DNA of 64,000 bases from Isoetes taiwanensis (lineage: Eukaryota > Streptophyta > Lycopodiopsida > Isoetales > Isoetaceae): positions 39,235,841 through 39,299,840 of the forward strand of contig JAJEKV010000002.1 of the NCBI GenBank assembly GCA_021234155.1, given 5' to 3'. A model generated the notes under the pieces. That model had not been told where the DNA came from. It ran no database searches and saw nothing but the letters and a program-made list of their open reading frames with translations. Below, one piece after another: positions 3,096 through 47,234 of this stretch. The position numbers and the translations under genes were made by a program. Each line of letters starts with the position of its first letter. Within the stretch, counting starts at the first letter, position 1.

Positions 3096-3103
3096 ATTGG
3101 AGA
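3096..3103. repeat. 8-bp target site duplication, left copy
   Basis: ATTGGAGA immediately precedes the element's left CAGGGATA end and recurs immediately after its right end at 12708-12715. Eight bases is the duplication length generated by hAT transposases. Confidence 0.95.
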
Positions 3104-3121
3104 CAGGGATAAGTTCAATAC
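3104..3121. repeat. hAT left terminal inverted repeat
   Basis: It begins CAGGGATAAGTTC and pairs with the reverse complement of the right end, CAGGGATAGGTTC, over about 18 bp with three mismatches. Confidence 0.92.
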
Positions 3122-3226
3122 TGTATATGTTTTATACGTAATATATATTTTTCAAAAGATACGGCACAAATTTGACGTATAATACGTCAAAAATACGTCC
3201 AAAAACATTTCCGGCGTCGAAAAAAA

Positions 3227-3479
3227 TTTGCGTAAGCGAAAACAACAGTTTCGCTTACGAGAAGATAGTTTCGCGTAAGCGAAACCGTTGTTTTCGCTTA
3301 TGCAAAGCGAGGAAATTTTTGCGTAAGCGAAAGCAACTGTTTCGCTTACGCAAAAATAGTTTCGCATACTGTTTTCGCTTACGCAAACTTTTTTAAACTT
3401 TGCGTAAGCGAAATCAAGAGTTTCGCTACCGCGAAAGTATCTTCGCGTAAGCGAAACTGTTGTTTTCGGTTACGCAAAA
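3227..3479. repeat. Left subterminal array of the GCGTAAGCGAAA motif
   Basis: About a dozen copies of GCGTAAGCGAAA or its complement TTTCGCTTACGC occur in this 250 bp, mostly as head-to-head pairs separated by seven bases. Full copies read TTTCGCGTAAGCGAAA, a 6-bp stem around a GTAA loop. hAT transposases are known to bind short repeated subterminal motifs through their BED zinc finger, so these are the likely binding sites. The arginine/lysine-rich reading frames across the array are by-products of the repeat. Confidence 0.93.
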
Positions 3480-3563
3480 TTTTACAAAGCATTTTAGGGC
3501 ATTTTGTTAAGGGAAAAAAAGTTTTTGCGCTACTGTCTGGTCTATTTTGAGCATGTGAATTAT

Positions 3564-3572
3564 TATATATAA
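3564..3572 (+). promoter_or_regulatory. Candidate TATA box of the transposase gene
   Basis: TATATATAA lies between the left subterminal array and the transposase, about 365 bp before the ATG at 3935. The position fits a core promoter followed by a leader of about 330 nt, but AT-rich sequence alone could produce it. Confidence 0.4.
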
Positions 3573-3599
3573 GAAGAATGTGTTTAGCCCTAGAATTCA

Positions 3600-3934
3600 C
3601 CTCGAACGTTGACTACCAGGTCGAGTCAACATACTCCTTGGGAAATGGTCAGCCTTTGAGGGTTGGGTTTTGCGTTCGGGGCCTGACGCCGGAATATGTG
3701 AAGTGAGATTACTCCTTCACAAAGTTTTCCGACCTTGGGTTCCTACCCTATTCCTTAGAGACCTAAAGGTTCTTGTCTTTCCCTCCTTACGCTCGAACGA
3801 GACGTCGATGTAACATATGCGTAGTGAGCTTGCTCCTTCGCATATATAGACGTCGGCCTTTAGTTCGGACGATTAAGGAGTCTTTACCCTTTAGAATAGC
3901 AGAGCAGAGACAGTGATTTTAGATAGCAGCAGGG
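3600..3934 (+). other. Transposase leader with two similar hairpins
   Basis: The presumed leader contains two diverged copies of a roughly 65-bp block (about 3676-3742 and about 3793-3857). Each copy contains a small inverted repeat: GTGAAGTGAG...CTCCTTCAC in the first and TATGCGTAGTGAG...CTCCTTCGCATA in the second. A third imperfect palindrome, GTTGAC...GTCAAC, is near 3608. These may be RNA hairpins or further transposase contact sites; function is unknown. Confidence 0.5.
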
Positions 3935-6473
3935 ATGGCAGCTGGGCACGCATCTACATCAGGCGGCGCTGGGGGCCATGCATCTACATCCCGTGCCGCC
4001 GGCGGTCATGCATCATCATCTAGGGGTGCGCGGCCGTCGCGCGGTCATGGCAGGGTCACGGGGGTTGCAGCAGCACGTGGAAGAATTGTATGTCGAAATA
4101 CTGGTGGTCGAAGGAGAGGTCCTGAGTGGGGATTTGTGAAGGAATTTGGCCAGAATGAGTGGCAATGTGTGTTTTGTGGGTACACGTTAATAAATGGATC
4201 TGCGACAAGAATACGAGCTCATCTTTTACGTGACTCTAAAATTGGGGTGCAAACTTGTACGGCATCTGCTGACATACGACAAGATGCAATTGAAGTGTTG
4301 GGTCTAAAAAAGAACTTCAGCAGAAAAACACAGCTAAGGGATAGTCAAGGACCTTCACCGTGCCAAGCAGAAGAGATCATTTACACCACCCCTCCTGCAG
4401 CGCCAATGTACCAACCAGAGGGTGGACTAAGGTCGATAGGAGGGTTAAGTAGGGCGCAAAAAGAATGGCAGAGACAATTGAAATAGTGGAAAGACAGACT
4501 AAGCAACAGAGGGTTGACCAATGCTTAACATCAGAGCAACTGAAGAAGACGCAATTGAAGGTTGTAGAGGCATTTTTATATACCGGATTGTCTCCACATG
4601 TCTTAGAACACAAAGTAATGAAAGAAGCCTTCCAAGAAGTTGCCAAAGCGGGGTCGGCTTTCAGGCTGCCATCATACAAGCATGCCAATAACAAAATGGT
4701 AGATGAAATACACGGGAAAATGGTGGAGAAGGTGGAGATGAAGTTGTGTCGTGTTACTGAAGCCAGGCCAGCTTCACTAGTGACTGATGGTTGGAGCAAT
4801 GTAAACAAGGACCACCTTATAAACTTTATGATCGTCTATCCAGGGGGCGAAGTATTTTTGAAGACCGTGGAAACTAAAACTGATCAGGTGACAGGAGATT
4901 GGATTTTTCAGAAAACAAAGGCTGTGATAGAGAGTTTTGGGCCGAAGAGAATATTTCAGGTCGTAATGGACAATGCGTCTAATTGTAAGTTAGCGGGTGA
5001 AATGTTGGGTCTGAATTTCCAGGATTGCACGCGACCAGCTGCCAATGCCATTGCCTAAACTTATTGCTCAAGGACTGGTTTTCACAGCACACTTGGTTCA
5101 AAGATCCCATTCAAAAGGCCCGTCATCTTGTGAAATTCATCACAAAGAAGCTGACAATTTATGCCAAGTCATTGCGTCAGAAGGCCCTAGCACTCATGAA
5201 TCCTGGTCAGACTCGGTTTGGTTCCAATTACATTTGTCTTGAAAGAGCGCTTAGGTGTCGCGACCCGATTATCTCGACCTTCAACCATACAGAGTTCTTT
5301 GAATGGGAGAGGAGGCAGAAGGGCAAAAATGCATCAAAACATCGGCAGCAAGCTGCTGCCCTTCGAGAAATGATTGGGCGGGAGACATTTTGGAAAGGCG
5401 TAAAGAATGTTGTCAAGTGCATGCAACCTGTTTGTCATGCCATCAAAACCCTTGATTCTTCGAAGGCAAGCACTGGAAAGGTCTGGAGGTGTTGGCACTC
5501 CATTCAATCCTTTCTAGAACGTGATGGCCCCAATGCACCATTTGATAATGCTAAGCACGCAACACTGTTCAGATGCTTCAATGAACGATGGAAGAAGTCC
5601 TACAATGATCTTCATGGCGCCGCACATGCCTTAGACCCACACAACCACGATATGGACCAGCATACAGATAAAGAAGTGATGGATTCATTGAAGAAGATTG
5701 CAAAAATGTATTATCCGAACAGCTCGGACTATAAGACCTTCATTGCCGAGTTAACTGAATACCAGAACTTGAGTGGAAGGTGGGCAAATGAAGAGCTTCA
5801 CGATGCACTGGAGAGTCATAAAAAGGAACCAAATATGGAATCCTATGCATGGTGGCAAGCCCATGGACAGGTTACTGATACGTTACAGGCCCTTGCAATG
5901 ACTATCCTCTCCTTGGTATCCTCCAATAGTGCAAGTGAGAGGAATTGGAGTGCTTATAAGTACATACACAGTGTCACACGAAATCGCCTGTTGCATAAGA
6001 AGGCTGACAAACTTGTATATAACTTCTCAAATTGGTGGCTTTTGAATCGCAACAGTGCAGATTCCGAAGTGGAAGAGGACAGCTTCAAAGACAGTGAGGA
6101 CGAGTTGCTTGCTGTAAATGCCGCTAACCATGTTGATGAGGACATTCAACATACCCATTTTGTCGATGCCGAAGATGATTTAGATAAGAACATGTTCTCG
6201 GACGACTCAGACGACAGCGAAGATACAGAAGAGGAGTCTGATGCAGAAAGGCCAGGTCCAAGTAATACAGGAGATCCGCTTGAGGACTTAACGGTACGTG
6301 ATCCAGCGGACTCTCCAATGCCAGTTACCCAGACAAACAGGCAACGTGTCAGAAGAAACACATCTCGAGGATGTTGCAGTAAGGGAAAGGGCCAGAGGAG
6401 GTTCAACCTAACCCTGCAGGCAGAAGAGGACGAAACTCTGGATGATGAAACTGATGAAGATGGTGCTGCCTAG
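3935..6473 (+). CDS. hAT transposase (BED finger, DUF659, hAT dimerisation), two frameshifts
   Basis: Three overlapping plus-strand frames (3935-4486, 4465-5058, 5025-6473) form one hAT transposase. Frame 1 has a Gly/Ala/His/Ser-rich start, then a BED-type zinc finger (WQCVFCGY... with RIRAHLL) near residues 70-110. Frame 2 holds the DUF659 part of the RNase H-like core: SLVTDGWSN, VVMDNASNCK. Frame 3 begins with CQCHCLNLLL and ends with the dimerisation region: YAWWQAHG, LSLVSSNSASERNWS, HSVTRNRLL, LVYNFSNWW. A long acidic C-terminal tail follows. The family cuts the element at its ends and reinserts it with 8-bp duplications, as seen here. The frame changes at about 4470 and 5040 are either inactivating indels, sequence errors or splice points; no good splice pair was seen. 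The ATG at 3935 precedes all domains. Confidence 0.9.
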
Positions 6474-6508
6474 AAAAATGATGTGATTGTAACTGTGCTG
6501 GCACTATT

Positions 6509-6514
6509 AATAAA
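6509..6514 (+). terminator. Candidate poly(A) signal of the transposase
   Basis: AATAAA occurs about 35 bases after the transposase stop codon and is followed by T-rich sequence, as expected for a plant 3' end. Confidence 0.5.
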
Positions 6515-6884
6515 AAGTAAAGTTTTTTGTTATAAGTTTTTGTCTTCTGTATATTTCGTTACCGTGTTCTATGTTTCTTTCATGTATGATGATTTAGGGT
6601 CATTTCAACAATTTGTAACTTCGTTCGGTGTTTCATTCATGTGTAACCCCAGTCGACATTGCCTAGAGAAACCTCGCCGTGTTCCATTACCTCCATCGAC
6701 CATAGTATCTTCTGAACCCTCCTCGGATCAGATCCGTCTCGACTTCCGTTGCTGCTTGCCTCTTCGCATGCCACAGAATCTTGCTGATGAGAAGTAATCT
6801 ACGCATGCCAAGGGGCCAAACAGCCACGGACCAGTTGGGACGAATCTGATGCTGAAGAGGGTTCATAAGGTACATGATCCACAT

Positions 6885-7122
6885 CGTCCCATCCACTGGA
6901 TAGGTAAGACGTATCTCCAGTACGCCAAATTGGCATTTGAATGCTATCAGGACCCTATACCTGTACTCCATTCTTTTGGGTGGCACATGCTCTACATACC
7001 TAATGGGTTTATATGGCAGGTGCCACCTAAAGGAATGGAGGTACAGATACACGATCCCGATGGCATTCAAACGCACATTTGGCATATCGGAGTTACGTCT
7101 TACCTATCCAGTGGACGGGACA
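6885..7122. repeat. Large inverted repeat (about 105-bp arms)
   Basis: The block 6885-6987 is a diverged reverse complement of 7018-7122, with a loop of about 30 bp. Shared runs include CCACTGGATAGGTAAGACGT in one arm and its complement in the other. The arms make similar peptides when read on opposite strands, which explains the spurious open frames here. It lies inside the hAT element between transposase and kinase. A transcript could fold into a long hairpin; it may equally be a foldback element nested in the transposon. Confidence 0.8.
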
Positions 7123-7146
7123 ATGGAACAAGTGATATCAGAGTGA

Positions 7147-7230
7147 AAGCATCGAGACTTCCCAAATCTTGCTTTCACGCTACATTGCCCAAAGAGGCGG
7201 GGAAAGAAAGATTGAGAAGTCTCGATGCTT
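7147..7230. repeat. Perfect 15-bp inverted repeat
   Basis: AAGCATCGAGACTTC (7147-7161) recurs as its exact reverse complement at 7216-7230, giving a stem of 15 bp with a loop of 54 nt. It directly follows the larger inverted repeat and contributes to a hairpin-rich block between two genes of the transposon. Confidence 0.85.
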
Positions 7231-7955
7231 GAATTCATCAATCACTAATCTCTAATGAACCCACAAAATCGCAAGCAACCACTAGGCGGATATCATCCGT
7301 GGCCACAATAAAAATAGAGTACTCAAAAACCTTGTTACCTCCGTCCTTGTACAATCCACCACGACGCCAAAGGGGACGCGTCCTCTAATTTCAAGTCACA
7401 GTGCTGCTGGAGGTTCTCCATCAATAGCAAGAGTTAGGATATTCCATGATTTGGTGCCTAACAGCCGCTATATAGATGGACAAAGCCCAGGCACCACTTT
7501 GGCTTGAAATTAGGGTACGCTCTCACCTCTGACGTCATAGCAACTTGCATACGAGAACTTTTACCTCTAGAACGAACGATTTTTGCTCCAGATCCCATTT
7601 GGGGTTTTTTTGTGTAATATAACCTAGCAAAGTAACTAAACCACATTGACACAGAGAGACTCCAAAAGAGAGCCAGAACAAAGCTCGCTCTTTCTAAAGG
7701 AGGTAACAAGAATTTCAAGAAGTCTATATTGTTTGCCACGGAGAATATCAAGCCTGGTGAACTGACAACCATTCAAGAGGGTCACGCTCCAGGCTTACTC
7801 CCTTTTCGAGTTTCCTGCTTGATATATCTAAATCGCCACCTAAAATGAGTGAGCGACCTCATCCTAGAGGGCAATTTTGATACATCAAATAGGACAAACA
7901 AAAGAGACTAAGCCAGGGTGAAAGAGATGACAGTTAGTCCACTAATCCTAATTGG
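7231..7955. other. Non-coding interior of the hAT element
   Basis: No supported gene. The open frames here are short and lack motifs. The stretch connects the hairpin-rich block with the foldback at 7956-8054. Confidence 0.4.
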
Positions 7956-8054
7956 CATCTGTCCCTCTACATCAGGCCCTTCTTTTCAGTGATCACCATG
8001 GTTTTAACAACTATGATGTTCAAAGAAAAGAAGGCCTGACATGAGGTCCAGATG
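7956..8054. repeat. Foldback with about 30-bp arms
   Basis: 7956-7986 (CATCTG...CCTTCTTTTC) is a near-complete reverse complement of 8025-8054 (GAAAAGAAGG...CAGATG) with a loop of about 38 nt. Size and near-perfect pairing resemble a small-RNA precursor, but there is no expression evidence. Confidence 0.8.
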
Positions 8055-8253
8055 TCAAATATGTTGCGTGTGCAGATGATTTGACTCACTCACATACTTA
8101 ACTATTACACAAACAACTCAATGCGGCAACCCAACCCCCAAAATTTTATTAAGACAACAAATCCTCGTCAACGAACGTTGGTTCATTCATGTGCATCTGA
8201 GATCTTAGGAAAAAATATCAAAAAAATAATGTAGATAGCAGTGTATTCGAAGC

Positions 8254-8523
8254 TCATGGGTTTAAGTAATCGTCCTGATCCTCCACCACCACGTTTGCAC
8301 CAGGATTCACCCAATCACCTGTTGGCCCAGGAGCGGGAGGCAGGTACTTGTTAATGTCTGGTACCTCCTCACCTTCACGCGGTTCTTCCACCTCCCTCCA
8401 AAGGTCCATTTCACGTTGGGTATGGAATGCGTGAGCCATTCCGTCCCTCCTGCGAGCAATCAGAGGTGGCATGGGGGGGGCATGCGTGATTGCATGTTGA
8501 GCACGGCATACTGGAACTCTCAT
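8254..8523 (-). CDS. Small acidic, proline-rich ORF on the opposite strand
   Basis: An 89-codon minus-strand frame of coding-like composition: a basic/histidine-rich start (RVPVCRAQHAITHAP), a charged middle (REMDLWREVEEPREGEEVP) and an ordered acidic end (NVVVEDQDDYLNP). No family is recognised. Its ATG overlaps the plus-strand ATG of the kinase-like gene within one CATG, so the two would be divergent with overlapping starts. The frame stays open upstream of this ATG, so the true start may lie higher and overlap the kinase gene's first segment. It could be another cargo gene, a truncated exon, or chance. Confidence 0.4.
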   Translation of the reverse strand: MRVPVCRAQHAITHAPPMPPLIARRRDGMAHAFHTQREMDLWREVEEPREGEEVPDINKYLPPAPGPTGDWVNPGANVVVEDQDDYLNP

Positions 8524-9822
8524 GAAAGATGCTGAGAGAGTTTTTGGGCCTCGAATGATAGAGCTAGAACCTGAAAAGATTGATTCTGAAAGGTATGCTT
8601 GGATAGATGGGAATGTATCTCGTACAACTGGAAATATGATTCATGCGGTGGCAAATTTAACTAGACCGCAGAGTGCCTAAAAGATAAGGCTGTGGAATGG
8701 AATACAGCTTGGACGAATCGAAAGCTTAGAAAGGAAACCCATCAACCCCCTCATCTAATTAAGAAAGTTTTGGTACAGACTATTAGAGCCAAGCGTCCTG
8801 GTGAGACTGATAAAGAGTGGGAAAAAAGAAAAAGGGTAGATGCCAAGACTATATGGTTTGCAATGGTGGATTCCTCTCAGATAATCAACAGGACTAGAAT
8901 TGGTTCGGGAACAGATAGAACGGTGTTCAAATGCAATATCTTGGATTCTAGTTTTCTTAAAGACGAACCCTATTGTGTTAAATTTCAGAATGATGATGTC
9001 CGATTAGGTACGGCGAGGCCTGATGTGATAGTAAAGGCCATGATGAAAAACATGAGGGAGTCGCAAATGCAGGTTAGACATGGCTCTATCATACGCTGCA
9101 TTGGTCATACAACTGGGTTAGAAAGAACAGGGTTGATATTTCCTTACTGGAATGGGGGTTCTTGTGCATCTCTTTTTGTGCATCATGGAGATAATGAGTT
9201 TGCGAGGCATGCATTTCAAAGATTAGGGTATAAGCCTAGTGTCGAGGTCGACGTCCATAAGCTTGAGCAACGGAGGAAGCAAGAGTTATATGTTGCTCAA
9301 AGAGTGGGTGATCTAACTATGTCGTTTTTAAGCGGCTTGCTTAAGCTTCATAAAGAGCACCATTTACACATGGACTTGCACCCGGGCAATGTCTTGCTTC
9401 ATTTTGACTTTGGGAAAGAGAGAGGATGCACGGACCCCCAGGCTATTTATATTGGTATATGTGATTGGGGAGAAGAAAGGCTAATAGGTGAGCTTGTGGA
9501 AGTGAAGCGGTGGGCATACAAAGGCATGGATGGTGCTGCCAAAAAGACGATTGAGAATGAAAGACTTGCCTATCCATACATGCATGATGATTTGTATTGG
9601 GGTCCAAAAAGAGATGGAACTAAGATGGTGCCTGCAAGGGTAGATTTCGACCTTTTAGGGGCAGCCTACTTTATCTATTACCTTGCTGATTTTGCACGCA
9701 GGCATTCTTTCTTGGAGGCTATGGGTACCACTGAACAAAGCCAGAGGTTTCGAAACATGTGCAATTATTTGAAGCACTGTGTCGAATCCCAATACGAGAC
9801 AAGGCACGCAAGTTTGATCTGA
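8522..9822 (+). CDS. Protein-kinase-like cargo gene, one frameshift
   Basis: The main frame (8665-9822) encodes a complete kinase fold. Numbering codons from 8692, there is a glycine loop RIGSGTDRTVFK (69-80), the ATP lysine in YCVKF (K97), the catalytic loop HMDLHPGN (D228, N233), DWG in place of DFG (D258), and a helix-F-like DFDLLGA near 318-324. The codon at 8692 is GTG, so translation should start upstream. A 52-codon frame from the ATG at 8522 ends at TAA 8678-8680 and looks coding (MKDAERVFGPRMIELEP); it overlaps the main frame by about 15 bp, so one indel separates them. Key residues are kept, so activity is plausible. No signal peptide or membrane segment is seen. It is not a receptor-like kinase; its exact family is unknown. 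It sits inside an intact hAT element. Confidence 0.85.
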
Positions 9823-10196
9823 ACCAGCTACTGAACACCATGCGGAGCACTTGGAATTGCTCTCCAACACATTGCACAAGACCCCAAATGGAATCAGATT
9901 GGATTCCTCAAGTTGGATAGGTGCAGACGATGCTGATCAAGCTAGACCAAGTCACGCTTAGCGTGCCATTTATGAGCTCTCTTGTATGCAACCAAAAAAA
10001 TTTATTGATTGAACAATTGCTTTAGACACATTTAATAAAACATCTTTGGCATTCTTATATATTTATTTTTGTTGCACTTGATTTTTTTTATAATTTATAA
10101 GTCATATTGAGTAGTTTTTTATTTTGCGTAGTTAACAACATAAAGCGTATATGCAAGTTAACGAACAAACAAGTTACCTAGTGCCAAACAAAAAGA
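9823..10196. other. Spacer between kinase-like gene and unknown ORF
   Basis: AT-rich and non-coding. A GAACCAGCTACTGAACACCATG-like stretch near 9822 recurs in altered form near 11570 (GACCCAGCTACTGACTCCATG), a weak sign of internal duplication within the transposon. An AATAAA near 10031 could serve as a poly(A) signal for the kinase-like gene. Confidence 0.4.
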
Positions 10197-11156
10197 ATGT
10201 CTCAACAACCGAGTTCGTCTCATCAGCAAGATACTATTTCTCGTCAGACGAGAGAAGGGGCTGATGAAACTGGGCAAGGAGCCAACTTATCCTTGCCGTC
10301 CTCTTTGAGAACTCCAGATGGCTTTGTATTCCCTTCTCTACCTACATTGTCGGAGATTAGGGCACAACAGCTATAGAGAGCAAAGGAACATGCTAGAATA
10401 AATGAAGCGCGTGCAAAAGAGCTGTTGAGGTTGAGGGCAATGGCAGAAGTGGCCAAGAAAGAAGGTGTCACAATTACAGAGGTGCATGGAGTTGCATGTG
10501 ACATGAGCCCAGGTTGTTGCCCGCATGGAGCGGATTATGAGGATATCGAGGCCAATATAGACGCCAAACAGTTTGACGTCGACTGGCCAAGCAGGAGAGC
10601 AGGTAAGTATAAGGCATATGACTGCAAGATCCCTGAAGTCTGAGCTAAAGCTTTGGAGAGGTGGGTCCAAGTGAAAGGAACGATGATAAAAAACCATGAA
10701 TTCAGCAAGACGTTTGCCAAGCAAGTGTACTATGAGATTGTGAAAGGGGAGCCCGTAAATTATGCTAGTAGAAAATGGAAACAAGGAAGCGGTAGTGGTA
10801 GCAGCAAGAGAGTGAAGCTCGCGAACGATTCTGAAAGCGCTCTTGGTGATGAAACCGTGACTATAATCTATTTGCTTCAAGATGCCATAAAACTTTTAGA
10901 TGTGGCGGGGGTTGCAGCAGCAGGTGCAGTGACAGAAAAGGTGGATCAGTTAGAGAATGAAAGAAGTCGAAATCTTACTCTGTCGAATCAACTTGCAGCT
11001 TTGGGTAGGGAAAACGCGCATCCTTCGTCTGTTGTAGTAATCAACTCTAACTCAGATGGGGTGGCGGCGCATATTCGCTCACAGAGCCAATTCATCAAAG
11101 CAGGTCTTAAAGAAGACCATAGCTGTTGGGGTCTTGATCTTTTCCTCTGCATCTGA
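10197..11156 (+). pseudogene. Unknown cargo ORF with coiled coil, two in-frame stops
   Basis: From the ATG at 10197 one frame runs to 11156, broken only by TAG at 10374 and TGA at 10641. The N-terminus is Gln/Ser-rich (MSQQPSSSHQQD), followed by a charged helix (RAKEHARINEARAKELLRL), a cysteine cluster (CDMSPGCCPHG), a basic central part (GTMIKNHEFSKTFAKQVYYE), a Gly/Ser-Lys/Arg linker that may be a nuclear localisation signal (SGSSKRVK), and a heptad-like C-terminal helix (EKVDQLENERSRN). No family is recognised. It follows the kinase-like gene on the same strand. Codon-level coherence across the stops says it was a real gene, recently broken or read through. Confidence 0.6.
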
Positions 11157-11175
11157 GTAGAGGACTCGGCCTCTG

Positions 11176-11262
11176 GGTTCATGTGCGGCTCTGCTTCTAG
11201 CCTAGGTCCTTCTTTGGGGCTCATGTGAGGCTCTGCTTCTAGTTTAAGTCCTTCTAACTCTT
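11176..11262. repeat. Two-copy 42-bp tandem repeat
   Basis: Two consecutive copies of a TCATGTG(C/A)GGCTCTGCTTCTAG block spaced 42 bp apart. On the minus strand they encode a repeated LEAEPHM peptide in a 114-codon frame (10988-11332) that overlaps the end of the unknown cargo ORF; coding status is doubtful. Confidence 0.7.
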
Positions 11263-11332
11263 GTGGATTCATAGCAGCTTTAGAAGAAACTGTGTAGCTA
11301 GCAATATGCCAACAGTAGCAAAGCAGGAACAA

Positions 11333-12393
11333 TACCTAAATGTCTGGGGGAAAAAAAAACCCACTTTAGTGAGTGTCAATAAGCTGTGAAATAGTTCATT
11401 AAGATTCTAGTAAACTACTGAGCTTCAAGTTTGACGGTTAAACCCTAAACCCTACTAAATTTCAAGTTGACGGTTATAGGCACCCTATGGTTAATCTACT
11501 GAGTTTGACGGTTCACGGTTATAGGAAATGCATTTTTCTCATTCTCTTCAACAAGTTTAACTTATGATCTGACCCAGCTACTGACTCCATGAGGAAACTC
11601 CCTCATAGAGGTTGGCACTCAACTGCATTTGACCGCCTGGCAAACTCACGAATATTTAATGAAATATACGCCAATCCCTATATTAGTGTTGGACTTTCGT
11701 CAACAACACCGTCAGAGAATAGGGTATATCTCATTAAAATATCCTTCTGACCTTCTTTAAGAGTACAACACCCACCTTTCGAAACCGCATGACCGAAGCC
11801 AACAAGCTGCACCAGGAGAGGGCTATACACCTCGATGAAAGGTTGACCCTAGCAATCCTCGACATCAGCAATGACACCCACCCTCGGCATGGCACAATTC
11901 AATATGGTACACCAGGCGAGGATCACTGCCGAAACTCTAAAACCTAATCTCTCTTAATCAACTCCCTAACTGCTACATTTGTCGATAAAAAGAGAGGGCA
12001 ACTAAATTTCTAATTCTTATTTTTTTCTTTTGTTTTTCTTTTATTGTTTTTTTTTCTCGTTATTTTATTGTTTCTGTTTTATTGTTTCTCTTTCTTTTTT
12101 TCTCATTATTTTCTCTACGAAAATCAGTCTGGATTCGTCCATAGAACAAGACGCTCACCATCGTCACGCCCCCCGATGGAGGGGGGCAACAGACAAGGGC
12201 CTCACTATGGAGGAACCCTAGACCTACTATAAAAGAAACAACAACAAAAAACTAACTAAGTTTGGCTAGAAACTAAGAAAAAAGTAAAAAAAAAAAGGCA
12301 AAGGGGCACAGGTTGTGGAGCAGGGCGCAGAAGGTTTACCTTGTTCTGCGCAAAAAAACTGAAACAGCGTCTCGTTATATATAAAAAAAAAAA
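11333..12393. other. Non-coding right interior of the hAT element
   Basis: No supported gene. Near 11,420-11,520 the phrase TTTGACGGTT recurs several times, next to two tandem CCCTAAA units. A T-rich tract (12,015-12,115) and A-rich tracts precede the right subterminal array. Confidence 0.5.
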
Positions 12394-12588
12394 TTCGCGT
12401 AAGCGAAAACTACTGTTTTGCTTACGCGAAAACCCTTTCCCGTAAGCGAAACCTTCAAAACAGCTTACCCGAACAAAAAAAAGTTTCGCGTAAGCGAAAC
12501 CTAAAAGTTTCGCGTAAGCGAAAATTAAGCTTTCGCTTACGCTAAAAGATTTTCGCGTAAGCGAACCTGAAGGTTTCGCTTACGCGAA
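12394..12588. repeat. Right subterminal array of the GCGTAAGCGAAA motif
   Basis: About nine copies of the same TTTCGCGTAAGCGAAA motif as at the left end, again in both orientations and often paired with a 7-8-bp gap. It places matching presumptive transposase binding sites about 120-310 bp from the right terminus. Confidence 0.93.
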
Positions 12589-12689
12589 TTTTTTTTTTTC
12601 GGCCGGCAGGTTAAAAATACGAAAAATATGTATTTAACCTAAAAATATGTATTTTTTGACTTTATATGTCTGGAAAAATAATTTCGTAC

Positions 12690-12707
12690 GTACAGAACCT
12701 ATCCCTG
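12690..12707. repeat. hAT right terminal inverted repeat
   Basis: The plus strand ends ...GAACCTATCCCTG, the imperfect reverse complement of the left end CAGGGATAAGTTC. Confidence 0.92.
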
Positions 12708-12715
12708 ATTGGAGA
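12708..12715. repeat. 8-bp target site duplication, right copy
   Basis: ATTGGAGA, identical to 3096-3103, directly abuts the CCTG end of the element. Confidence 0.95.
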
Positions 12716-45414: not shown

Positions 45415-45790
45415 GCTGAGGCTATTGTTCTGCCTCCAGCACCAATGGGAAGTATGTCTTCCTCTTTGAAGGAAGATCTTGAGGCCATTGTTCTGCCTCC
45501 AACACCAATGGGAAGTATGTCTTCCTCTTTGAAGGAAGAACTTGAGGCCACTGTTCTGCCTCCAGCACCAATGGGGAGTATGTCTTCCTCTTTGAAGGAA
45601 GATCTTGAGGCCAACTGCTACGCCTCCAAAGACCAATGCTAAGTATGTCTTCCTCTTTGAAGGAAGATCTTGAGGCCAAATTACGCCTCAAAGACCAATG
45701 GGAAGTATGTCTTCCTCTTTGAAGGAAGATCTTGAGGCCACTGTTCTGCCTCCAACACCATTGGGATCCTCTTTGAAGGAAGATCTAGCT
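45415..45790. repeat. 63-bp tandem array before L1 ORF1
   Basis: About five and a half copies of a unit starting GTTCTGCCTCCAGCACC and ending GGAAGATCTTGAGGCC, exactly 63 bp in the first three. In one plus frame the unit encodes a 21-residue repeat containing VLPPAPMGSMSSSLKEDLEA; later copies have indels. Tandem units ahead of ORF1 recall the monomer promoters of some L1 families. Confidence 0.92.
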
Positions 45791-45809
45791 GCTGTATCCC
45801 TTCGTAGAG

Positions 45810-47234
45810 ATGGCGAACCGGATTTGCCACCTTGATAATCAAGCTTTGATTGTTAAAATAATAAGAGGTAATCCCTCTTTACCTGAGCTTAAGAAGACCA
45901 TAGAGCGTATCTGTCGGGGCAGAATCCTACCCCGTATTCAGCCTCTTGATAATCTATACTTCCTCATTACTCTTCAGTCTGATAGAGAGGCCTCAACTCT
46001 CTTCAAGAAAGGGATTCTCACATGTCCAAATGGCCAGATTCTGCTTCAAAAGTGGCAGCCAGGCTTTAACCCTCATAAGCCAGAAGCTTTGTTTTATCCT
46101 ATCTGGCTTTCCCTCTCAGATCTTAGTGCCGAGTATTGGACTGAGAAGGCATTCAAAGCCATTGCCTCTTGTCGAGGAGAGTTTATATGCATGGGAGGGA
46201 CAACCATCGAAGCTCCAAAGATTTGTATCTCTGTTGATACCTTCAAGCTGCTCCCAGAATCTGTTTTTTTCCATAGCTTTGACAACAAGCTCACTGAGTT
46301 TAAACTCTCCATTTCTGGCATGCCTCTTCCATGCTCTATATGCGGAGCCAATGTGCATTCAGGAGTGCTTTGTACCAATTCCCAGTTACCTCCTAAGCTG
46401 GGGCCTGACATGAAAGGGAAAGAGACATTTGATGGGAATGTAGACTTCGAAAAATCCATGCTCCTTAGTTCTGCCATAAAAAAGGCTGTTGTCCACCTCT
46501 GTGAAAGCTCCAAGGGAGGCAGCTCTGGACAAAATAGACATGGGCAAACTATCCAAGCTGACATTGCATCAATCTCCACTGTATCTATTGATCTGACTGC
46601 AATCCAGCCCTCTGTAAGTGTCGCTTATGCTCCTAACAGACCAGTGCCTCTGTCCGTCCATTCCCAAAACAGATATGCTCCTTTGGTTGGGATTGAGAAG
46701 CCCACCTCTCCGCCGGCCTTGATCAACACACATCTGGTCTGCTCTTCTGATAGAGACTGCTCTTTGGAGGCGGCTGATAATCACAAAGAACACCCCAAGA
46801 TGATTTCAGATCATCTCCAGAAGGTAGATCACGGCTCTATTGCTTCCACTGGTTCTAGTCTTCATATCAGCGCCATCAGCTCTTTTCTCCATACCCGAGA
46901 TGGCCCTATCTCACCCAAGGGCATTCATCAAGACCGAGATGGCCCTATCTCTCCCAAGGGCATCCAGCAAGATTGTGCCAGTACTCCGCATCTGGCATTT
47001 GGTACTTCTGAAAATGGTTCCAAGTCTGCTGGACCAGCAGCACCCAAGGTTTGTGATGCCATTGTGAATGGCGAAATGGATAAGGTTGGGGATGGCTTCA
47101 AATCCTCTGAGCCGGCAACTATTGAAGGTGAAATGATGGAGGCCTCTCAAGCAGGTAGACGCTTGCCTCTTCGTAAGCCTCTGTTGGAAAAAAGAAGAAA
47201 AACTTACTACAGAAGCACGATAAACAGGGTTTGA
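45810..47234 (+). CDS. L1-like ORF1 (gag-like, DUF4283 plus zinc knuckle)
   Basis: A 474-residue intact frame. Residues about 30-165 fit the RNA-binding DUF4283 region of plant L1 ORF1 proteins (LDNLYFLITLQ, YPIWLSLSDLSAEYWTEKA, KICISVD). A CCHC knuckle follows: C175-x2-C178-x4-H183-x4-C188. The C-terminal half is low-complexity, Ser/Pro-rich, with a 13-residue tandem repeat RDGPISPKGIHQD (near 363-388), and ends in a basic stretch (RKPLLEKRRKTYY). In L1 elements this protein binds element RNA in the cytoplasm. The ATG follows the 63-bp array closely. The frame is intact, unlike everything downstream, which could mean recent insertion or selection. Confidence 0.85.
   Translation: MANRICHLDNQALIVKIIRGNPSLPELKKTIERICRGRILPRIQPLDNLYFLITLQSDREASTLFKKGILTCPNGQILLQKWQPGFNPHKPEALFYPIWLSLSDLSAEYWTEKAFKAIASCRGEFICMGGTTIEAPKICISVDTFKLLPESVFFHSFDNKLTEFKLSISGMPLPCSICGANVHSGVLCTNSQLPPKLGPDMKGKETFDGNVDFEKSMLLSSAIKKAVVHLCESSKGGSSGQNRHGQTIQADIASISTVSIDLTAIQPSVSVAYAPNRPVPLSVHSQNRYAPLVGIEKPTSPPALINTHLVCSSDRDCSLEAADNHKEHPKMISDHLQKVDHGSIASTGSSLHISAISSFLHTRDGPISPKGIHQDRDGPISPKGIQQDCASTPHLAFGTSENGSKSAGPAAPKVCDAIVNGEMDKVGDGFKSSEPATIEGEMMEASQAGRRLPLRKPLLEKRRKTYYRSTINRV
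46898..46975. repeat. 39-bp in-frame tandem repeat within ORF1
   Basis: CGAGATGGCCCTATCTC(A/T)CCCAAGGGCAT is present twice with a period of 39 bp, keeping the frame. Confidence 0.9.

Follow-up and report, generated by a model that had tools for sequence, protein, structure and literature searches.

The locus analyzed here raises the question of whether a protein kinase gene can be a proper part of a hAT transposon. In a stretch of 64,000 nucleotides from Isoetes taiwanensis (the window), the first-pass annotation described a structurally complete hAT element that carries a kinase-like gene and a further, coiled-coil gene, both in the same direction as the transposase. To our knowledge, hAT transposons normally encode the transposase only. 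We examined the borders of this element, the state of its genes, and the arrangement of the related copies in the host genome.

The ends of the element are real. Sequence searches placed the left terminal repeat CAGGGATA at 3104-3111 (plus strand) and the right terminal repeat TATCCCTG at 12700-12707 (minus strand), and the element is flanked by perfect 8-bp target-site duplications, ATTGGAGA, at 3096-3103 and 12708-12715. On the plus strand of the window, ATTGGAGA occurs at these two places only. Mirrored subterminal arrays composed of GCGTAAGCGAAA palindromes and the complement were found near both ends by sequence and repeat searches, on the left at 3223-3483 and on the right at 12383-12599. 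When up to two mismatches were allowed and overlapping registers were counted, 24 of the 31 matches in the window lay inside 3230-3475 and 12397-12585. The repeat CAGGGATA also opens seven other left-end loci that we read (L002-L008), and the 8-bp duplication typical of hAT elements was found again around two further copies, as ACTTTTGT in C1075 and ACATGAAA in C1018.

The transposase gene (3923-6473, plus strand; open reading frames and profile search) is broken, being split over three overlapping frames at 3923-4486, 4453-5058, and 5001-6473. Its profile matches were DUF659 (1.3e-18) and the hAT C-terminal dimerisation domain (PF05699; 5.2e-9, 36.2 bits against a cut-off of 21.4). That is, two of the domains assigned by the first-pass annotation were confirmed, but the BED zinc finger, which had also been assigned, scored 11.9 bits, under its cut-off of 20.6. 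The frame 5001-6473 contains a CQCH, spotted by eye, as a candidate for the C/DxxH motif, and has a long acidic, serine-rich tail; the C/DxxH signature is given as a trait of the hAT superfamily in PMC9587614. At some other places in the genome the transposase frame is long and open, for example in C1084 (766 aa). Between the convergent genes lies a non-coding middle at 6474-8253 (delimited by open reading frames, repeats, and alignment). It contains an 85-nt inverted repeat (6882-6966 and 7041-7125, 82% complementary), and the repeat search listed further inverted pairs there.

Comparison with other copies revealed that a block at 8515-11015 (breakpoints approximate), which comprises the larger part of the kinase gene together with the front part of the third gene, is inverted in the window copy, and that its breakpoints fall inside the coding sequences of both genes. 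The kinase gene at 8523-9822 (plus strand; open reading frames, profiles, and copies) lacks its N-terminus and is frameshifted, with the longest open frame at 8665-9822. The missing N-terminal piece of about 85 aa was left behind on the minus strand at 11018-11272. The third gene, which in intact form encodes a RING-type coiled-coil protein, is represented in the block by its front part (10200-11015, plus strand) with stops at 10374 and 10641, and its C-terminal piece was left behind in the canonical orientation at 8254-8500 (minus strand; right boundary approximate). Both remnants were recognized from open reading frames and copy comparison; the first reading had missed these minus-strand pieces (11272-11018, and 8254 to about 8500). 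In the window copy, an inversion accompanied by a deletion has cut both genes, and the RING domain is lost.

The window kinase (L009) retains recognizable motifs, but three frameshifting gaps separate it from an intact copy, its glycine loop reads IGSGTDRTVFK in place of the IGSGTYGTVFK of C1075, and its open frame reaches 26.4 bits with the Pkinase profile, below the cut-off of 31.7. Likewise, the coiled-coil frame does exist, but it is a stopped fragment of a RING-finger gene without the RING domain. The kinase and transposase genes point in the same direction in this copy because the block is inverted, which is an accident of this copy. Judging from these lesions, the window copy is a dead, internally inverted member of a multicopy plant hAT family. 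The description of it as structurally complete did not hold: the copy is rearranged, and the transposase, kinase, and third frames are all broken. For the same reasons, namely the inverted block and the broken genes, we rejected the idea that the window copy is a working element.

The question then has to be answered at the level of the family. We searched the genome, 1,658,258,908 bases in 1110 contigs, and scored each place once. This gave at least 40 left ends, at least 107 kinase places, at least 94 places for the third (RING) protein, and at least 87 transposase places; the rows left out (61 of 101 for left ends, 3 of 110 for the kinase, 10 of 104 for RING, and 8 of 95 for the transposase) were additional pieces of one place, or matches to the palindromic array on the opposite strand. 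Among the transposase places listed, 37 of 87 lay no farther than 15 kb from a kinase or RING place; the chance expectation was 0.34. The two partners were convergent in 36 of these 37 linked pairs, and the single co-directed exception was the window copy. Thus, the shared direction described by the first-pass annotation is correct for the window copy but not for the family. Among the matches listed, a RING place lay within 6 kb of 36 of the 107 kinase places, on the same strand and downstream in all 36 cases. Furthermore, for 18 of the 40 left ends at least one of the two genes was scored within 20 kb, and within 15 kb of 56 of the 107 kinase places neither a transposase nor a RING place was scored, again among the matches listed.

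One copy, C1075, is complete: it measures 10,269 bp, carries the duplication ACTTTTGT on both sides, and is arranged with the transposase gene reading rightward, followed by the RING gene and the kinase gene reading leftward. Its kinase gene is intact, its transposase gene is broken, and its RING frame has no start codon at the head. The copy at 39.69 Mb of C1018 also has both ends (10,273 bp, duplication ACATGAAA, the right terminus one base short) and shows the usual order of three genes, with broken kinase and RING frames. Together with the window copy, this makes three copies that are flanked by complete 8-bp duplications and hold all three genes. The full form of the family is a left end, a rightward transposase gene, a non-coding middle, and leftward RING/coiled-coil and kinase genes. 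These results support, at the family level, the view that the kinase is part of the transposon, because the transposase and the third gene accompany it repeatedly within the same ends and in one fixed, convergent arrangement. The recurrence for which the first-pass annotation had asked was therefore found as far as the joint presence of the three genes is concerned, although none of the copies read had all three genes intact.

The same comparison bears on the possibility that the kinase-RING block is a separate mobile element that landed in a hAT element. In favour of such a nested insertion, the block in the window is bounded by breakpoints and lies in the opposite orientation. However, in 25 of the 29 other kinase loci (L010-L038) the kinase segment runs directly into the right-hand flank of the element, in the orientation opposite to that of the window copy; the four loci without this flank are L024, L035, L036, and L037. 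The block is thus colinear with the right-hand DNA of the element, its breakpoints in the window cut coding sequence, and among the repeats listed for the window element there were none at the block borders of the terminal kind that the first-pass annotation had named as a mark of a chance insertion. We consider nesting extremely improbable.

Copies without the kinase had been named as another sign of a chance insertion. Indeed, neither gene was scored within 20 kb of 22 of the 40 left ends, but the three of these that we read (C1030, C930, and C590) look like derivatives. C1030, a shortened copy of 5,432 bp, is an internally deleted form of a kinase-bearing element that has kept the right end and part of the kinase; its flanking 8-mers agree at seven of eight bases. 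In C930 and C590 the homology ends inside the transposase gene. Kinase-less copies therefore exist, but to judge by these three they look like derived forms. Another deletion derivative, at 1360-2774 of L023, lacks a transposase between the left end and the kinase gene, which are joined to each other. In addition, a 740-bp MITE with the family termini and perfect CCATGCAT duplications was observed in C1049:12034500-12050499 (L041 and L042; 6077-6816 in reverse orientation), adjoining frames that by eye resemble a copia-type retrotransposon.

We then considered what the two additional genes encode. The kinase of C1075 is 589 aa long and passes the Pfam cut-off, and that of L011 scored 33.3 bits with Pkinase against the gathering cut-off of 31.7. 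The ATP-binding lysine, HMDLHxGN, and DWG, that is, the HxDxxxxN and DxG motifs of protein kinases, were present in nine of nine aligned kinases, including P0001, whereas exchanges in the glycine loop were seen in L014 (Glu) and in L051 and L052 (Ala). P0001 (ENA; 580 aa) was the one relative obtained by protein search and shows 50% identity across 89% of the query. No locus of the P0001 gene was found in viral contigs, and none was confirmed in the genome contigs searched. An alignment search gave no relative at E <= 0.001 among the roughly 8000 most word-rich candidates; this search missed even P0001, so that its negative result is weak. The AlphaFold2 model of the transposon kinase had an overall pLDDT of 44.8, too poor for use beyond the strand order, and with this poor model the best 50 Foldseek matches were all kinases (best E 3.3e-3). 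For roughly residues 65-175, near the N-terminus, this otherwise poor model predicts a helical part with a pLDDT of about 60-90. The transposon kinase resembles RAF and other protein kinases by a weak profile match of the glycine and catalytic loops (best E 8.1e-4), and differs from them in having HMD for HRD, DWG for DFG, and its own helical N-terminal part.

The third protein matched the RING profile PF00097 with 23.7 bits (cut-off 21), and six other RING-type models matched it below their cut-offs. By eye, seven of the eight zinc ligands could be assigned; the last Cys is replaced by Asp in C1075 and by Gln in L041. With seven of eight ligands, the predicted protein is RING-like rather than a classical RING. 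It also has a coiled coil, recognized by eye, and a basic stretch, KRVKL. Its search gave no relative at E <= 0.01 among the roughly 8000 most word-rich candidates scored, which is a weak absence. The kinase likewise contains a basic stretch, RKRSRPQQ. We take both stretches to be nuclear-signal-like, and from these short motifs we infer that the two proteins may be located in the nucleus.

In order to clarify whether the genes are maintained, we compared the copies with one another. Between the three intact kinase copies dN/dS was 0.17-0.24 (0.18-0.24 in one computation and 0.17-0.23 in the other), which means purifying selection, and in 29 comparisons with C1075, the window copy included, it ranged from 0.12 to 0.45. 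Changes common to copies gave 0.21 and singletons gave 0.55; this tally omits five of 30 rows (L024, L032, L035, L036, and L037). Between subfamily A and subfamilies B and C, the kinase dN was 0.21-0.27 and dS was 2.3-3.2 or saturated, so that dN/dS was about 0.07-0.11 where dS was computable. The ratio was 0.13-0.14 between B and C, and 0.22, 0.25, and 0.56 within B. Codon third positions were the most variable in all six pairs. The non-coding right flank differed by 4-10% in seven comparisons, which is lower than dS; when this flank replaces dS as the neutral reference, the kinase dN is only about 0.3-0.5 of the neutral rate, a ratio below 1 and less extreme than dN/dS. For the RING gene dN/dS was 0.21 and 0.23, saturation having been reached in two other comparisons, and ten values for the transposase ran from 0.07 to 0.63, the two highest involving the degraded C930. 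All three genes show purifying selection. The kinase-RING module appears to have belonged to the transposon for a long time and to be kept by selection.

These values bear on two further alternatives. Since hAT elements can capture genes and the window copy is broken, the two genes might be passively captured, functionless pieces of host genes, as in Pack-TYPE elements. The intact frame of 589 aa, the dN/dS of 0.17-0.24, and the same arrangement with shared ancestry in two subfamilies make this very hard to maintain. Nor does the family fit the definition of Pack-TYPE elements as unselected gene fragments without a transposase: the selected 589-aa frame lies beside a transposase gene. Alternatively, the pair might serve the plant, for instance in signalling or defence, or some other party, and the transposon might be a mere vehicle. 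Coding selection alone does not tell who benefits. However, frames without any stop or frameshift were present at only three of the 29 kinase loci, singletons stand at 0.55, and the pair keeps a fixed place within the mobile element across subfamilies; a role as cargo for the host or another party is therefore improbable. The kinase and RING proteins would rather act for the element itself, because the constraint follows the mobile lineage, whereas individual copies degenerate.

The second subfamily adds information on the possible target of the module. C920 has the left end, transposase, RING gene, and kinase gene in the usual order (the stretch examined ends before the right end), and C1049 has the RING gene, kinase gene, and right end of the second subfamily, with no transposase match in the stretch examined. 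In C13 the kinase and RING genes were read, and the stretch examined held no left end or transposase. When C920 (140000-153999, L060 and L061) was compared with C1075, the transposase core and the non-coding middle were 89% identical, a level usual within one subfamily, whereas the left end, the N- and C-terminal parts of the transposase, the RING gene, and the kinase gene were 68-72% identical. Such mosaic subfamilies suggest exchange between element lineages. They also point to a history of the module apart from that of the core.

An action of the kinase on the transposase, one of the roles suggested by the first-pass annotation, is conceivable. In this main alternative, both proteins would have the transposase as their target, the kinase by activating or inactivating it and its RING partner by limiting its amount, so that the element would regulate its own copy number. 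All three genes are linked and selected, and the acidic, serine-rich tail of the transposase could serve as a substrate. However, a core at 89% beside a kinase and RING at about 70% is unlike tight co-evolution of the module with the core, and we regard this self-regulation as unlikely, though deserving attention. The separate history of the module leans toward a target in the host. The reading that we prefer, with a probability of roughly 55%, is that the family is a three-gene hAT whose kinase and RING proteins work in the nucleus as helpers of the element, most likely via host factors. Under this preferred reading, the two proteins would modify nuclear proteins by phosphorylation and ubiquitylation, and through host factors the pair would most likely blunt host silencing or set when and how strongly the element transposes. 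The window copy would have lost the module when the inversion with deletion cut both genes. More tentatively, we speculate that this hAT lineage possesses its own signalling module, a protein kinase with a RING-like ligase, whose modification of nuclear proteins of the host may help the elements to evade silencing or to control the timing of transposition, and that different kinase-RING versions may have been joined to a transposase core that hardly varies, in the manner of interchangeable counter-defence cassettes.

Eukaryotic cut-and-paste transposons rarely carry helper genes that are kept by selection. Among plant DNA transposons, second genes are carried by MuDR (mudrB) and by VANDAL elements (VANC), and VANC counters silencing. 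These elements resemble the present family in having a second gene, and the role of VANC is the role that we propose for the kinase-RING pair; on the other hand, they belong to another superfamily, and their proteins are unrelated and include no kinase. The DUF659 branch of hAT shares with the Isoetes family the 8-bp duplications, short terminal and subterminal repeats, DUF659, and the hAT dimerisation domain, and the Isoetes family differs by the addition of the kinase and RING genes. Topic searches of the open-licence literature found no hAT element with a kinase. According to PMC9587614, Kolobok lineages carry accessory proteins, namely nucleases, a RecQ helicase, or KolX. Kolobok is thus similar as a eukaryotic DNA transposon with an extra gene beside the transposase, and different in its superfamily and in the nature of these extra proteins (PMC9587614). 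If the kinase-RING pair does counter host control, it would offer a handle, in a lycophyte lineage, on the conflict between plant transposons and their host through protein modification. Natural comparisons are available within this single genome, since the family includes elements that bear the kinase, internally deleted forms, and a MITE.

Outside the element, two other features of the window were observed. Immediately to its left, an open reading frame at 2719-2982 on the minus strand resembles by eye a piece of a LINE endonuclease; a Pfam search at E <= 0.01 gave no match for it. Farther to the right, a 63-bp tandem repeat of 5.5 copies (45417-45766) stands just ahead of an open reading frame at 45789-47234, which encodes 481 aa with DUF4283.
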